Positions 66 through 5,810 of a DNA stretch of 64,000 bases are shown one piece after another. Source of the stretch: Aurantiacibacter gangjinensis (GTDB lineage Bacteria; Pseudomonadota; Alphaproteobacteria; Sphingomonadales; Sphingomonadaceae); contig NZ_CP018097.1 in the NCBI RefSeq assembly GCF_001886695.1, positions 2,065,001 through 2,129,000 on the forward strand, given 5' to 3'. The notes under the pieces are model-generated. The model was given only the letters and a program-made list of their open reading frames with translations, did no database searches and was not told the origin of the DNA. Each line of letters begins with the position of its first letter. Positions within the stretch are counted from its first letter, which is position 1. Both the position numbers and the translations under genes were made by a program.

Positions 66-548
66 TCAGGGCTCGCCCGCACCCCAGAGTCGCGACTGCT
101 CGACCCAGCCCTTGTGGCCATCGACGTCGAGCTCGCACCACCCCTCTGCGCAATCGCCGAGTTCGCCGATTACACCCGGCTCCAGGTTCCAGCGCAGCGG
201 CGCAGAGTCTGCTGGATCCGCGCGCATGGCCACGATGCCTTCGCCCGTCACGATGGCCGTGCGGCGTCGGCTGAGCAGGCCCTCATACATCCAGCCCATA
301 GTGCCGTCGGGTTCTTCCACATAGCGCCAGCCTTGGATCAGGCGCACTACCCGCACAGGTAGGCCCTCGCGCGTATAGACCCAGTCGATCGGGAATTGCT
401 CACCCGCGCCTCGGCGAAGATAGGCTTCTTCCGCATCGATGCTGGCCCAATATGGCAGCTCTGCATCCTGAGCGAGGGCAGCAGGCGCGATGAGGGCGCA
501 GGCACCGGCGGAGAATGTTAGCAAAGCGAGTCGGATCATTGATGGCAT
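66..548 (-). CDS. Secreted SH3-domain protein
   Basis: About 160 aa with an N-terminal signal peptide (hydrophobic stretch ending in APAALAQ-D). The rest looks like two bacterial SH3-like modules: the first around YLRRGAGEQFPIDWVYTREG and WRYVEEPDGTMGWMYEGLLS, the second around MRADPADSAPLRWNLEPG and WCELDVDGHKGWVEQSRLWG. Proteins of this SH3_4/DUF1058 type are periplasmic and are thought to contact peptidoglycan or other proteins; the partner here is unknown. No clear ribosome binding site decides between ATG at 548 and ATG at 539. I chose 548; an in-frame ATG at 590 would put extra residues before the signal peptide and is less likely. It is divergent from the Amt gene across about 130 bp. 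Confidence 0.75.
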   Translation of the reverse strand: MPSMIRLALLTFSAGACALIAPAALAQDAELPYWASIDAEEAYLRRGAGEQFPIDWVYTREGLPVRVVRLIQGWRYVEEPDGTMGWMYEGLLSRRRTAIVTGEGIVAMRADPADSAPLRWNLEPGVIGELGDCAEGWCELDVDGHKGWVEQSRLWGAGEP

Positions 549-678
549 CAGCGCATGATAGGGGATGTGCAGAGCCCACCGCAATCGCACCGTGCATGCT
601 TGCCGAAAAAGGCGCCATGCGATTTAACGATAAACCAAGGGACGGCGCGCTATGGGCGCGGTCATGAGGGGGACTGCC

Positions 679-1977
679 ATGCTGCGCATGATGATTGCTG
701 CTGCGACTTTGCTGGCCATTCCGGCACCTGCCCTGGCGCAGGAAGCATCGCGCGCTGCGCTCAACAATTCGGGCGACACCGCCATGGTCATCATGGCGAC
801 GCCCTTGGTGCTGCTGATCGCATTGCCGGGACTGGCGCTGTTCTATGCAGGCCTCGTGCGGGCAAGAAATGTCCTGTCCGTAATGTTGCAGATCGGCGCG
901 GTCGTCGGAGTCGTGTCCGTCCTCTGGATCGCGGTCGGTTACACGCTGGCTTTCGGTAATACGACGAGCGGGTTCATCGGCGATGGATCGCGCTGGATGA
1001 TGATCGACCTCGCCTCCCTGCGCGCCGGGATGACCTTGCCGGAAAGCACCTTTGCGATGTTCCAGCTCGCATTTGCGGTACTGGCACCGGCCTTGATGGT
1101 GGGCGCATGGGTCGGGCGGGCACGCTTTGGCTGGGTTCTGGTATTCGCCGGTGTATGGAGCTTGCTTGTCTACGCGCCCGTGGCGCACTGGATCTGGGGC
1201 GGCGGATGGCTCGGGCGGCTCGGCGTGACCGATTTCGCAGGCGGCCTTGTGGTGCATATGACGGCCGGTGTGTCCGCGCTTGTTGTGGCACTGTTGATCG
1301 GCAAGCGCGAAGGTTTTTCCGCCACGCCAGGCACGCCGCACGCGTCTGCGCTAACCTTGCTGGGCACGATGCTGATCTGGGTGGGCTGGCTCGGGCGCAA
1401 TGGCGGCAGCGCGCTCCTCGCAACGGACGATGCCTCCATGGCAATCGTCAATACGCATATGGCGGCAGCCGCAGCGGCGCTGACCTGGCTCGGGATCGAG
1501 AAATGGAAGACGGGCAAGGCCAGCGCCTTTGGCTTTGGAGGCGGCGCATTGGCCGGTCTCGTCGCCATCACCCCAGCTGCAGGATTGGTGACGCCGGGCG
1601 CGGCGCTGGTGTTCGGCATCGTGGCGGGGCTGGTTTGCTCTTTCGCTGCTCAGGCGGTCCGTACAAGGCTCGCGATCGACGACACGCTAAGCGTATTCGC
1701 CATCAATGGCGTTGGCGGCATGCTGGGCGCCTTGCTGGTCGGCGTGTTCCTGCATCCCGATCTTGGCGGGACCGGATATCCCGGCGAGATGGGGCTGATC
1801 GCAATGCTCGGCACACAGGCCCTCGGTGTCGCAGTCGTCGCCGCTTACTCGGCGATCATGACGGCCATCATCGCCATCGCGGTCTCGCTCTTCATCCCGA
1901 TGCGCGTGGAAGAAAGCGAAGAGATCGAAGGGCTGGACGCGAGCAGCCATGGTGGCCGCGCATGGGATTTCGACTAG
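679..1977 (+). CDS. amt: Amt-family ammonium transporter-like protein with altered pore residues
   Basis: 432 aa with a signal peptide (ending APALAQ) and about eleven membrane helices typical of Amt/MEP/Rh channels. ATG 679 is preferred over 652 because AGGGGG lies about 8 nt upstream and the signal peptide then starts cleanly. Family marks are GLVRARNVLSVMLQ, HWIWGGGW, DFAGGLVVH and AINGVGGMLG. By alignment with E. coli AmtB from memory, the outer Phe of the gate (F107, here about residue 132), the Trp of the recruitment site and the first twin-His (H168, here about 193) are kept. However F215 is Arg (about 240, in WLGRNGGS) and H318 is Asn (about 343, in FAINGVGG). These residues line the conduction path, so normal ammonium transport is doubtful. 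No glnK/glnB gene is adjacent. Confidence 0.88.
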   Translation: MLRMMIAAATLLAIPAPALAQEASRAALNNSGDTAMVIMATPLVLLIALPGLALFYAGLVRARNVLSVMLQIGAVVGVVSVLWIAVGYTLAFGNTTSGFIGDGSRWMMIDLASLRAGMTLPESTFAMFQLAFAVLAPALMVGAWVGRARFGWVLVFAGVWSLLVYAPVAHWIWGGGWLGRLGVTDFAGGLVVHMTAGVSALVVALLIGKREGFSATPGTPHASALTLLGTMLIWVGWLGRNGGSALLATDDASMAIVNTHMAAAAAALTWLGIEKWKTGKASAFGFGGGALAGLVAITPAAGLVTPGAALVFGIVAGLVCSFAAQAVRTRLAIDDTLSVFAINGVGGMLGALLVGVFLHPDLGGTGYPGEMGLIAMLGTQALGVAVVAAYSAIMTAIIAIAVSLFIPMRVEESEEIEGLDASSHGGRAWDFD

Positions 1978-2065: not shown

Positions 2066-2395
2066 ATGTCACTGGGACGCGCGCTGATGCGCCTTCGCGA
2101 GAAACGCCAACGGGTCGAGTTTCGGGCCGGAATGATCGCCAGCGGCGCTTGCGACCAGATCGTGATGGTATGCGATGTGTCGGCCAAGGGGCTGGGCGGC
2201 ATCACCACGGGCGACGCGGTTAATGCGGGCGACCGCGTGCTGTTCGTCATGCCCGATATGCTGGAGATGACCGCTACCGTGCGCTGGTCCATCGCCAACC
2301 AGTTCGGCGCGCAATTCGACGAGATGCAGGATGTGAAGCGGCTCTCCGCTTACGACATGCATGGAGCCGAAGACACGCTGCCCCGATCAGCCTGA
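2066..2395 (+). CDS. PilZ-domain protein
   Basis: 109 aa. Start chosen at ATG 2066, preceded by AAGGA at 2055-2059; the longer frame from 1949 overlaps amt and has no PilZ homology. The N-terminal RLREKRQRVEFR and the later CDVSAKGLGGIT match the RxxxR...(D/N)xSxxG layout of PilZ domains, which bind cyclic di-GMP. The second half (DRVLFVMPD, TATVRWSIANQFGAQF) fits the PilZ beta-barrel. It is a single-domain protein, so it probably acts as an adaptor. The 3' end overlaps the convergent hydrolase gene by 9 nt. Confidence 0.7.
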   Translation: MSLGRALMRLREKRQRVEFRAGMIASGACDQIVMVCDVSAKGLGGITTGDAVNAGDRVLFVMPDMLEMTATVRWSIANQFGAQFDEMQDVKRLSAYDMHGAEDTLPRSA

Positions 2396-3088
2396 CGCCT
2401 GCTCGGCATCGACTTCGGCGATTTTCGCGAGGATCGTCTCCATGGACGCCCGCGATGTGCCGAGCTTGAAATGCGGGGCATCGACCTGCAGCCGATAGTC
2501 GCTTTCTTCGTCAGAACCGCGTGTGCATTCCGGCGCGATCACGCCATCCACCGCAGACCACACGGCTATCGTCGGAACAGGCGGTTTCTGCGCCATCTGT
2601 TCGGCAAAAGGCGGATTGTCGACCGAATGATCGTTGATCGCCTCGTACAATTTCCACGCACGATTGGCGTGGCGGTCGCCGGAGAACGGACTTGCCACTG
2701 TCACCACCATATCGAGCGCGTGCGGCACACGGTGCGCCAGTACGCGCGCATATAGCCCGCCAAGGCTCCACCCGATCAGCACCGCATTCTTTCCGCTATC
2801 GCGCACAAGCTGCTCGATACGCGCCTGCACCGCCTCCAGCTTCGCCGCGTCGGCGCCGATATTCAGGCCCTGCCCCCAGCCCTCCGCCGCGAAGCCGCGC
2901 GCATTGAGCGTGCGGCGCAGCAGCGTGGTCGAGACATCGCCGGTCATCAGGCCGGGAATGACGATGGCGGGCCGCCCCTTGCCGATATCCGCGCCCTTTC
3001 TAGGCAGACGCAACGGATTGAGCAGCACGCGCGGAAGGGACAGCCCCTCGCGCAAGGTGTTGCGCAGCGGAGGCGGGGCATTGCTCAT
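2387..3088 (-). CDS. Alpha/beta-hydrolase, lipase/esterase-like
   Basis: About 233 aa. The nucleophile elbow GWSLGG, preceded by a beta strand (NAVLIGWSLGGLYARVLAHR), marks an alpha/beta-hydrolase of the lipase/PGAP1-like type. VIPGLMTGD near residue 45 resembles the oxyanion-hole loop, and DAPHF near the C terminus could supply the catalytic His. No signal peptide, so cytoplasmic or loosely membrane-associated. Three consecutive ATGs (3094, 3091, 3088) follow GGAGA; 3088 has the best spacing. A 7-bp palindrome (3106-3123) lies just upstream. The substrate is not predictable. Confidence 0.75.
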   Translation of the reverse strand: MSNAPPPLRNTLREGLSLPRVLLNPLRLPRKGADIGKGRPAIVIPGLMTGDVSTTLLRRTLNARGFAAEGWGQGLNIGADAAKLEAVQARIEQLVRDSGKNAVLIGWSLGGLYARVLAHRVPHALDMVVTVASPFSGDRHANRAWKLYEAINDHSVDNPPFAEQMAQKPPVPTIAVWSAVDGVIAPECTRGSDEESDYRLQVDAPHFKLGTSRASMETILAKIAEVDAEQASG

Positions 3089-3105
3089 CATCATTCTCCA
3101 ACGCC

Positions 3106-3204: not shown

Positions 3205-3627
3205 ATGAAAACCAATCTCGGCAACATCGCGCAAAAGCGTTTGCCACGCGAAATCGTGCCGCGTGATGAGCGCGAAGCGACCATGATCGGTGCCGTGATG
3301 GTCGGTGAATTTACCCCGCGCGTAACGGTGACCGTGCGCAATCTCTCGCAATTCGGCGTCGGTGTATCATCGCATGGCGTGGTGCCGGACATCGGCGAAC
3401 GGGTGCGGCTCACCCTCGTCACGGGTGACGAAATTGCAGGCGAGGTGCGCTGGACCGATGGCTGCGATTTCGGCCTGCGTATGGCACACGCATTCGACCT
3501 GCGTCGCCTTCGCGCTATCAATCGCCTGCGCGACCGGTTGACCGGGCAGGTAATCGCCGCGGTGAACGACGATACCGCCGCGCCGTCCACAATACGGGGC
3601 ACGACTCAACTGCGCCCCGTCTGCTAA
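3205..3627 (+). CDS. PilZ-domain protein
   Basis: 140 aa. ATG 3205 is preceded by AGGAGAG. LPREIVPRDERE near residue 13 and RNLSQFGVGVSSHG near residue 45 are the two conserved PilZ stretches, followed by IGERVRLTLVTGDEIAGEVRWTDG, the strand pair of the barrel. The predicted role is cyclic di-GMP binding. The C-terminal part (LRAINRLRDRLTGQVIAA) is a short basic helix that may contact a target. It is the second PilZ gene within 1.3 kb. The stop is 1 nt from the convergent flavoprotein stop. Confidence 0.72.
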   Translation: MKTNLGNIAQKRLPREIVPRDEREATMIGAVMVGEFTPRVTVTVRNLSQFGVGVSSHGVVPDIGERVRLTLVTGDEIAGEVRWTDGCDFGLRMAHAFDLRRLRAINRLRDRLTGQVIAAVNDDTAAPSTIRGTTQLRPVC

Positions 3628-3628
3628 A

Positions 3629-5035
3629 TCAATCCCCGGTCAGGATGCGATCGACCAACTGCTTTACCGATGGCGTGAACTTGTTGGAATAAAATGGATC
3701 TTCGCGGAAGCGATAGGCCGCGTGGCCGGCGAACATCAGGTTCTGGTTTACATCGTCGCCATGGGCGATGTCCTGCAAGGTTTTCTGGATGCAGAAGCTA
3801 CGCGGATCGGCGAGGCGGCCGGTAGTGTAATCGTCATGGTCCTTCCATGACGAGAAACCGCAATGCGATAGGCAGCCCATGCAATCGGCCTGGTCCTTGC
3901 GGATTTCGGCGCGCTTTTCGGGCGTGACGAACACTACGGTGCCGTCTGGCGTCTTCAATGCTTCCGTATGTCCCTGCGCCACCCATTCGCGCGCGGAGAC
4001 GAGGTCTTCCGGGCGGACCCAGAAGTTCTTGCCTTTCACACCGACATCCAGCTGCGCGGTCATTTCGCCTTCAGCCGTTTTGGCAAAAGCGATTTGGCGC
4101 TGGGAACGGTAAATCAGGTCGTAGAGGAAATCGTTCTTCACCGCGCTGGAATAGAAGCCGGTCGGGCTGAACTTGTGCAGCAGCACATCGCCCGGCTCGA
4201 TGTCGCGCAGCGCGTCCTTCCAGCCCTGGGGGATCGGGCTTTCCTCCGTCAAAAGCGGTCGGGTGCCGAACTGGAAGGCAATCTGGCCCAGCTCGTCATT
4301 GTCGATCCAGTTTTCCCACTCGCGCAGATACCACACACCGCCCGCCATCACGATCGGCACGCTTTCGGCAACGCCTTCCTTGCGCATTGTTTCGCGCAGA
4401 GCGGCGACGCGCGGATACGGGTCTTCGGGCTTCTTCGGGTCTTCGGCGTTGGACAAACCGTTATGCCCGCCCGCCAGCCACGGATCTTCATAGACCACCG
4501 CAGCCATCAGGTCGGACACCTTGTGATAGCTGCGCTTCCAAAGCGCGCGGAATGCGCGCGCAGAGCTGATGATGGGCAGGTAGCTGACATCGAAACGCGC
4601 CGCGATCTCGGCGAGCTTGTAGGGCATCCCTGCTCCGCAGGTAACGCCTGTGACCATGCCCTTTGTACGTTCCAGCACGCCTTCGAGCACGGCCTGCGCC
4701 CCGCCCATTTCCCACAGCACGTTGATGTTGATAGCGCCGTTGCCGCCGGCCATTTCATAAGCGCGCTCCACCTGCGTGGCAGCGCCATCGATGGCGTAGC
4801 GGATAAGCTGTTCGTGCCGTTCCTTGCGGGTCAGCTGATCGTAGACCTGCGGCACGATCTTGCCTTCCGCATCGTAGCTGTCGGCGTTCACCGCGCTCAC
4901 AGTACCGATGCCGCCCGCGGCTGCCCAAGCGCCGCTGCTCATGCCGTTGGTGGCGGATACGCCCTTGCCCCCCTCGATCAGCGGCCAAACCTCGCGGCCA
5001 CCGTAAGAAATCGGCGTAAGTCCCTTAAAGCTCAT
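3629..5035 (-). CDS. Nitronate monooxygenase family flavoprotein
   Basis: 468 aa from ATG 5035. The sequence shows an NMO/2-nitropropane dioxygenase-type TIM barrel: NGMSSGAWAAAGGIGTVS near the N terminus, GVTCGAGMPYKLAEIA and then IVMAGGVW and FGTRPLLTEES for the FMN phosphate site. It is about 100 residues longer than usual NMOs and carries a C-terminal Cys cluster (DCMGCLSHCGF, around residue 385). This may bind metal or an Fe-S centre, which is unusual for NMO. Related long forms exist among PfaD/FabK-like enzymes. The start lies inside the last codons of the upstream methyltransferase (11-nt overlap), so the two are almost certainly co-translated. The substrate is unknown. Confidence 0.78.
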   Translation of the reverse strand: MSFKGLTPISYGGREVWPLIEGGKGVSATNGMSSGAWAAAGGIGTVSAVNADSYDAEGKIVPQVYDQLTRKERHEQLIRYAIDGAATQVERAYEMAGGNGAININVLWEMGGAQAVLEGVLERTKGMVTGVTCGAGMPYKLAEIAARFDVSYLPIISSARAFRALWKRSYHKVSDLMAAVVYEDPWLAGGHNGLSNAEDPKKPEDPYPRVAALRETMRKEGVAESVPIVMAGGVWYLREWENWIDNDELGQIAFQFGTRPLLTEESPIPQGWKDALRDIEPGDVLLHKFSPTGFYSSAVKNDFLYDLIYRSQRQIAFAKTAEGEMTAQLDVGVKGKNFWVRPEDLVSAREWVAQGHTEALKTPDGTVVFVTPEKRAEIRKDQADCMGCLSHCGFSSWKDHDDYTTGRLADPRSFCIQKTLQDIAHGDDVNQNLMFAGHAAYRFREDPFYSNKFTPSVKQLVDRILTGD

Positions 5036-5810
5036 TAGTTTCCTCAGGAGCAATCTCGTCTGCAATCGAGATTTCTGTAGCGGTTTCGCCCGGCTGCAAA
5101 CAGGGCTCTATATCGCGTGGTTCGGGCCGTTCGCCCGCCACTTCGAATTGTGCGTAATAGCCGGCGATCTGCGGCTTGCGCACAAATTCCACGAGCCGAT
5201 AGCCGACCCGTTCGAATTCGCAAAACAGCAATTGCGGATTGATGCCGTGCTGGTCCGCCGGGCGGTCCACGTCCACCACGATCACTTGCCCACCTTCGCG
5301 CAGCGCCGGATGCATCCGCCAAAGCAGCGCGTAAGGCTCTGTAATTTCGTGATACATATGCACCATGAAGATGCGGTCGAAGCTGTTGGCAGGCAGGCCG
5401 GGATCGTCCACCCCGCCCAGCGCAATGCTGACATTGTCGAGCCGTTCGCGCTCCACACGCGCGCCCAGTCGTCGCAGCGCGTCTTCGTCGATATCCTGCG
5501 CCAGCACGCGGCCCGATGCGCCCACCCGGTCGGCGAGGCGTACGGTGTAGTACCCCTCGCCCGCGCCGATATCGGCGACGGTCATGCCTTCGGTGATGTC
5601 GGCCTGGTCCATCACGGTGACAGCCTCGCGGCGGTCGTCGCGGATCTGCTCGGTAGAAAACTGGTTGCTGCCGAGGTCGGACACCGGACGATAGGGCCGC
5701 GGGAAGTCGCGCGATGTTTCCGGACGGTTGTCGTCGGCCGTGTCGCAGGCAGGCATCGCCAGGCACAGGCCCAGCGCGCCGGCAGCTTTCAAGACGACCC
5801 CTCTTCTCAT
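5025..5810 (-). CDS. Class I SAM-dependent methyltransferase with lipoprotein signal
   Basis: 261 aa. Residues 5-22 form a hydrophobic signal ending in a lipobox-like LAMPAC, with the Cys at 22. After it comes a Rossmann methyltransferase: motif I VADIGAGEGYYT (about 78-89), acidic loop QDIDEDAL, and FDRIFMVHMYHEI (motif IV region). SAM is not expected in the periplasm, so either the signal is not used as it appears or the enzyme has another role. This architecture is known to me from other sphingomonads, but its function is not. It overlaps the downstream NMO-like gene by 11 nt. The predicted location is the inner face of the outer membrane. Confidence 0.75.
   Translation of the reverse strand: MRRGVVLKAAGALGLCLAMPACDTADDNRPETSRDFPRPYRPVSDLGSNQFSTEQIRDDRREAVTVMDQADITEGMTVADIGAGEGYYTVRLADRVGASGRVLAQDIDEDALRRLGARVERERLDNVSIALGGVDDPGLPANSFDRIFMVHMYHEITEPYALLWRMHPALREGGQVIVVDVDRPADQHGINPQLLFCEFERVGYRLVEFVRKPQIAGYYAQFEVAGERPEPRDIEPCLQPGETATEISIADEIAPEETNEL

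Follow-up and report, generated by a model that had tools for sequence, protein, structure and literature searches.

The twin-His pair and the Phe gate have been regarded as essential in nearly all Amt proteins, and replacement of the first His by Glu in fungi has been stated to be the only natural variation within the pair (PMC7447429). In E. coli AmtB, F215A gives no activity for ammonium growth (PMC3647058) and F215H, F215E, F215S and F215W are inactive (PMC10433425); F215L strongly reduces transport, and the inner Phe of plant AMT1;2 can be replaced with full activity (both PMC6856177). AmtB H318A is still active and also passes potassium, H318A and H318D together indicating that a protein with a single twin-His change can still conduct (H318A: PMC7447429), and polar twin-His substitutions convert the transporter to a channel (PMC9040831). 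Precedents for family members with other roles are the non-transporting sensor Amts (PMC5764959; PMC10433425), among them Ks-Amt5, in which F34 is one of three residues closing the pore (PMC5764959), and a dominant-negative AMT subunit (PMC9129087). Our literature search, whose coverage left out many subscription papers, returned no report on Sphingomonadaceae Amt variants. Here we describe several independent natural replacements of these essential residues, under purifying selection, in that family.

The gene of interest (positions 679..1977, + strand, of the window, which is the whole 64,000-nucleotide stretch analysed) has an intact reading frame of 432 codons. By profile and fold its product is a member of the Amt/Mep/Rh family, scoring 364 bits against TIGR00836 (above the curated cut-off of 343.3) and 329 bits against PF00909 (cut-off 23.2, E=4.5e-98). 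The AlphaFold2 monomer model (pLDDT 93.8) has the 11-helix Amt fold and superimposes on AmtB 2ns1_A with an rmsd of 1.2 Å over 402 residues (Z 64.8), pairing residues 27-431 with chain residues 3-406, which fits a numbering offset of +25. The protein starts with a signal-like segment, MLRMMIAAATLLAIPAPALAQ (679..741, +), and relatives begin similarly, for example L036 with MLRKLGAAAALFA. Sequence and profile search found the Amt domain alone, with no fused signalling output domain.

The initial annotation placed an Arg at the F215 position and an Asn at the H318 position, and both assignments were borne out. HMMER alignment to AmtB chains sets WLGRNGGS on WFGFNAGS and FAINGVGG on FGVHGVCG with no gap nearby, so that R240 (CGC, 1396..1398, +) stands for F215 and N343 (AAT, 1705..1707, +) for H318; a MAFFT alignment in AmtB numbering gave the same pairs, and both residues stay at these positions when the model is superimposed on 2ns1_A. 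The Phe gate and the second twin-His are thus lost. The residues that the annotation listed as kept are indeed in place, namely the first twin-His, H193 (= H168; 1255..1257, +), F132 (= F107) and W173 (= W148), and the recruitment site is completed by D185 (= D160; 1231..1233, +) and S244 (= S219). Further changes affect sites near-invariant in relatives: D338S (= D313; AGC, 1690..1692, +), T288G (= S263, Thr in relatives; 1540..1542, +), F238L and G57A (= G33). Both pore mouths are altered, together with the second twin-His; measured against AmtB-type transporters, the protein has the recruitment residues and lacks the twin-His pair and the F215 gate. At AmtB positions 28, 31 and 35 it has L, F and L, not the bulky set that closes the pore of sensor Amts; some relatives, such as L148, have F, Y and Q there. 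Position 35 corresponds to Ks-Amt5 F34 in an alignment with 6eu6.

Pairing of amtB with glnK is common, not universal, among AmtB-type transporters, and no glnK adjoins the window gene, as noted earlier: the PII genes of this complete genome (2.72 Mb, 2 contigs) lie at C1:206442, 822047 and 1906261. A second, canonical amt with glnK, which the initial annotation had suggested looking for elsewhere in the genome, is present at C1:822541-823725 beside the PII gene at 822047-822361; it has GWFGFNG and the second His, and its identity to the window protein is only about 30%. These are the only two Amt genes in the genome. A PII-linked second Amt was likewise present in all 28 genomes examined (22 altered-pore, 2 transitional and 4 canonical controls). 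A scan for sigma-54 promoters gave matches no more frequent than chance. As a separate observation, this glnK-linked Amt (L001, G000:C1:822047-823725; about 30% identity to the window protein) belongs to a different Amt subfamily from its counterpart in G321, a genome from the genus of the window (about 44% identity, with a PII gene on both sides), as if the glnK-linked partner locus had been swapped within the genus.

Profile search and synteny comparison identified the neighbours of the window gene, all on the - strand: a divergent SH3-domain gene (66..590), an alpha/beta hydrolase gene (2387..3094; a frequent neighbour), a nitronate monooxygenase-like (NMO) gene (3629..5065) and a methyltransferase gene (5025..5810), the first and the last two being conserved neighbours. 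In Sphingomonadaceae both canonical and altered copies sit within all or most of the order SH3, amt, hydrolase, NMO and methyltransferase. These copies are therefore orthologues, and a new paralogue or a transferred gene is ruled out by the shared synteny. No partner gene specific to altered-pore variants was found at the compared loci. In pairwise comparison with G326, the window gave 0.68 for amt and 0.77 for NMO, whereas canonical G300 gave 0.80 and 0.78; in both the window and G321 amt has diverged more than its own neighbours, that is, amt has accelerated and the neighbours have not. Some features of the locus are local. Next to the amt in the window are two PilZ-like ORFs, of which 1949-2395 occurs at the locus in only G000 and G314, and 3205-3627 in only G000, G314 and G214, among 21 genus members. 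In another genus, an ORF judged by eye to resemble 2-hydroxyacid dehydrogenase (L239:9356-10354) separates the SH3 gene from amt, unlike the window, where the two adjoin directly. One genome, G029, has both a canonical and an altered-pore copy (L162 and L163), the altered one with the usual SH3 and NMO neighbours. Two canonical orthologues, L187 (G131) and L199 (G142), each contain one in-frame stop, and the locus may be decaying in places.

We then surveyed 299 sampled family genomes, in about 100 of which an orthologue of the window gene was found, and searched 40 genus members in addition. The Arg and the Asn are both found in G321, and about 80% of the orthologues at the locus, including 29/29 of the closest family orthologues, retain F215 and H318. 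Among the Sphingomonadaceae sequences examined, 26 have lost F215, with L, R, M, V, I or Q in its place. Five of these have also lost H318, to N in the window, G321 and L143, to A in L070 and to P in L072, the last two additionally carrying H168F. H168 is thus kept in 24 and H318 in 21 of the 26, which suggests that most variants retain some pore function. D160 is kept in all variants and S219 is missing in more than half, so that ammonium binding is not common to all of them. In comparison, among 209 other Amts F215 and H318 were each kept in 208, the remaining H318 reading X. Besides F215, sites changed repeatedly across the variants are L35 (to R or Q; altered in most of them), I110, T111, N216 and D313. 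L35 to Arg was seen in no other Amt sampled except L184 and L188, two transitional sequences that have L35R and N216T and retain F215; their states hint at an order of the pore changes.

The altered gate probably has at least six independent origins. In a tree of 168 rows the altered label requires no fewer than five changes along supported branches, the separate groups being L157 beside canonical L161, L061 beside L023, L186 among L184/L188, a long-branch clade of 21 rows, and the window together with G321. The full tree unites the last two (SH-aLRT 98), and they come apart once the pore columns are omitted. In an rpoB+polA tree the window species falls in a 100/100 clade of eight, of which the other seven are canonical at the pore, and G321 lies elsewhere, beside canonical G317, G308 and G316, its exact placement having modest support (85/62). 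On the non-pore amt columns a grouping of window and G321 was rejected (p-AU 0.0225) and the species-tree placement was not (p 0.30), which is moderate evidence, as the group to be tested was chosen once a first tree was available and some of the branches are long. Taken together, the species tree and the AU result indicate two separate origins of F215R with H318N in the genus as the likeliest history, which brings the origins of an altered gate to six; a single origin is contradicted by the species tree and finds no support without the pore columns. Nucleotide identity between window and G321 did not point to recent sharing of a pore segment, and the neighbour-gene tree of the genus left the key node unresolved. 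Near-invariant sites changed in both number 11 against 3.3 expected (p=8.7e-06), seven of them to the identical residue, and L061 and L186, from different genera, independently share L35R, I110F, T111A, F215L and N216T; as these lineages were picked by their altered pore or gate, F215 itself should be left out of the tally. Changes were enriched at the sites that we take to line the AmtB pore in 5/5 lineages tested, weakly so for the window (p=0.035). The codon paths would be easy: CTY can bridge TTY and CGY, and it encodes Leu, the residue that the other variants have most often at this site; AAY is one base away from CAY.

The window amt is under strong purifying selection, omega=1 being worse by 133 lnL units in its lineage, where the branch omega is not separable from background owing to saturated synonymous sites. 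Six pairs within variant clades with measurable dS gave omega of 0.069-0.093, and the transitional L184 group 0.073-0.085, compared with 0.015-0.050 for canonical pairs, a two- to threefold rise in the variants. None of the altered-pore variants has an in-frame stop. As omega is far below 1 and stops are missing, the protein is maintained, a pseudogene being ruled out by the omega values and the open frames; judged from these sequences, the variant Amts appear to be kept under somewhat relaxed or changed constraint.

How should these data be interpreted? Repeated rebuilding of the pore under selection suggests a function different from the usual uptake of ammonium. A different substrate or a sensing role, as the initial annotation proposed, would be in line with pore changes that recur in parallel while purifying selection persists, and with the loss of transport published for AmtB F215 mutants. 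We tentatively favour, at somewhat less than an even chance, that the window protein is a conduction-impaired Amt retained for a regulatory or sensing role. It would be the orthologue of an ordinary Sphingomonadaceae Amt, remodelled at the pore in a genome that has another, PII-linked Amt able to take up ammonium. Given the published AmtB and Amt mutant data (F215, H318, AMT1;2), Arg at the gate with Asn at H318 would be expected to impair normal ammonium uptake by deprotonation and proton relay. The protein would persist in the membrane, presumably as a trimer, with the periplasmic ammonium recruitment residues W173, S244 and D185. It would most likely be a pseudo-transporter, a subunit that conducts poorly and has a regulatory or sensing role, and its Arg side chain may serve as a cation tethered where ammonium is recruited and gated. 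It is possible, though doubtful, that this holds for the family, i.e., that Sphingomonadaceae repeatedly and convergently made the orphan Amt a non-transporting pseudo-transporter, an ammonium sensor or a regulatory trimer partner, via stereotyped pore substitutions that removed the Phe gate and, in some of the lineages, the second twin-His as well. Counting against a regulatory or sensing role are the conduction by single twin-His mutants, the tolerance of AMT1;2 to loss of the inner Phe, the retention of H168 and H318 in most variants, the loss of S219 in more than half of them, and the lack of both a fused output domain and a variant-specific partner gene.

The main rival is altered selectivity: the remodelled pore might still transport by another mechanism or with other selectivity, letting ammonium, potassium, methylamine or some other small solute through much as a channel does. 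AmtB H318A, active yet permeable to potassium (PMC7447429), the switch from transporter to channel (PMC9040831), the retention of H168 in most and D160 in all variants, and the concentration of parallel changes at pore-lining sites all fit such a pore; however, a gate Arg should repel cations, AmtB is inactivated by charged or small side chains at F215 (PMC10433425), and a gate residue varying among L, R, M, V, I and Q is unlike one new filter, so that we consider it unlikely. Relaxed constraint alone would mean a redundant transporter on its way to being lost, still moving some ammonium. In its favour are the second Amt present in all genomes examined, the absence of the locus from many family members, the raised omega of the variants and the stops in two canonical copies elsewhere (G131, G142). 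This reading is rather improbable in view of the low omega and stop-free frames of the variants, the identical substitutions recurring across independent lineages beyond chance (F215 itself not being fairly countable), and the gain of charge by L35 to Arg, unseen in other sampled Amts bar L184/L188. An error of sequencing, assembly or alignment at the two codons is scarcely credible, since Phe to Arg requires two base changes, the independent G321 genome has the same residue pair, and the frame is intact with no gaps in the alignments at either site. Whichever role applies, the canonical/altered orthologue pairs L023 and L061, L161 and L157, and L184 and L186 offer ready material on residue roles and on change in the role of a transporter.

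In comparison with known systems, the window Amt resembles E. coli AmtB in fold (Z 64.8, rmsd 1.2 Å), in D160, H168, W148, S219 and F107, and in a C-terminal GLDxxSHG tail, and differs from it by Arg at F215, Asn at H318, Ser at D313 and the lack of an adjacent glnK. With the sensor Amts Ks-Amt5 and Sd-Amt1 it shares the Amt fold, and position 35 (Ks-Amt5 F34) is altered in most variants of the window gene; however, Ks-Amt5 retains the Phe gate and the His pair and has a fused kinase, whereas an output domain is lacking in the window protein, which has retained L/F/L at positions 28/31/35. Rh30 proteins (RhD/RhCE) are likewise Amt/Rh members with reported loss of transport (PMC10433425), but they are distant animal proteins, and a partnering of the bacterial protein would be hypothetical. 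Fungal Mep1/Mep3 also have a natural change within the twin-His motif, though there the first His is replaced by Glu, while in the window the second His is replaced by Asn and the gate Phe is lost. Natural H318N, and H168F with H318A or H318P, thus go beyond the statement that such variation is confined to Glu at the first His in fungi (PMC7447429).
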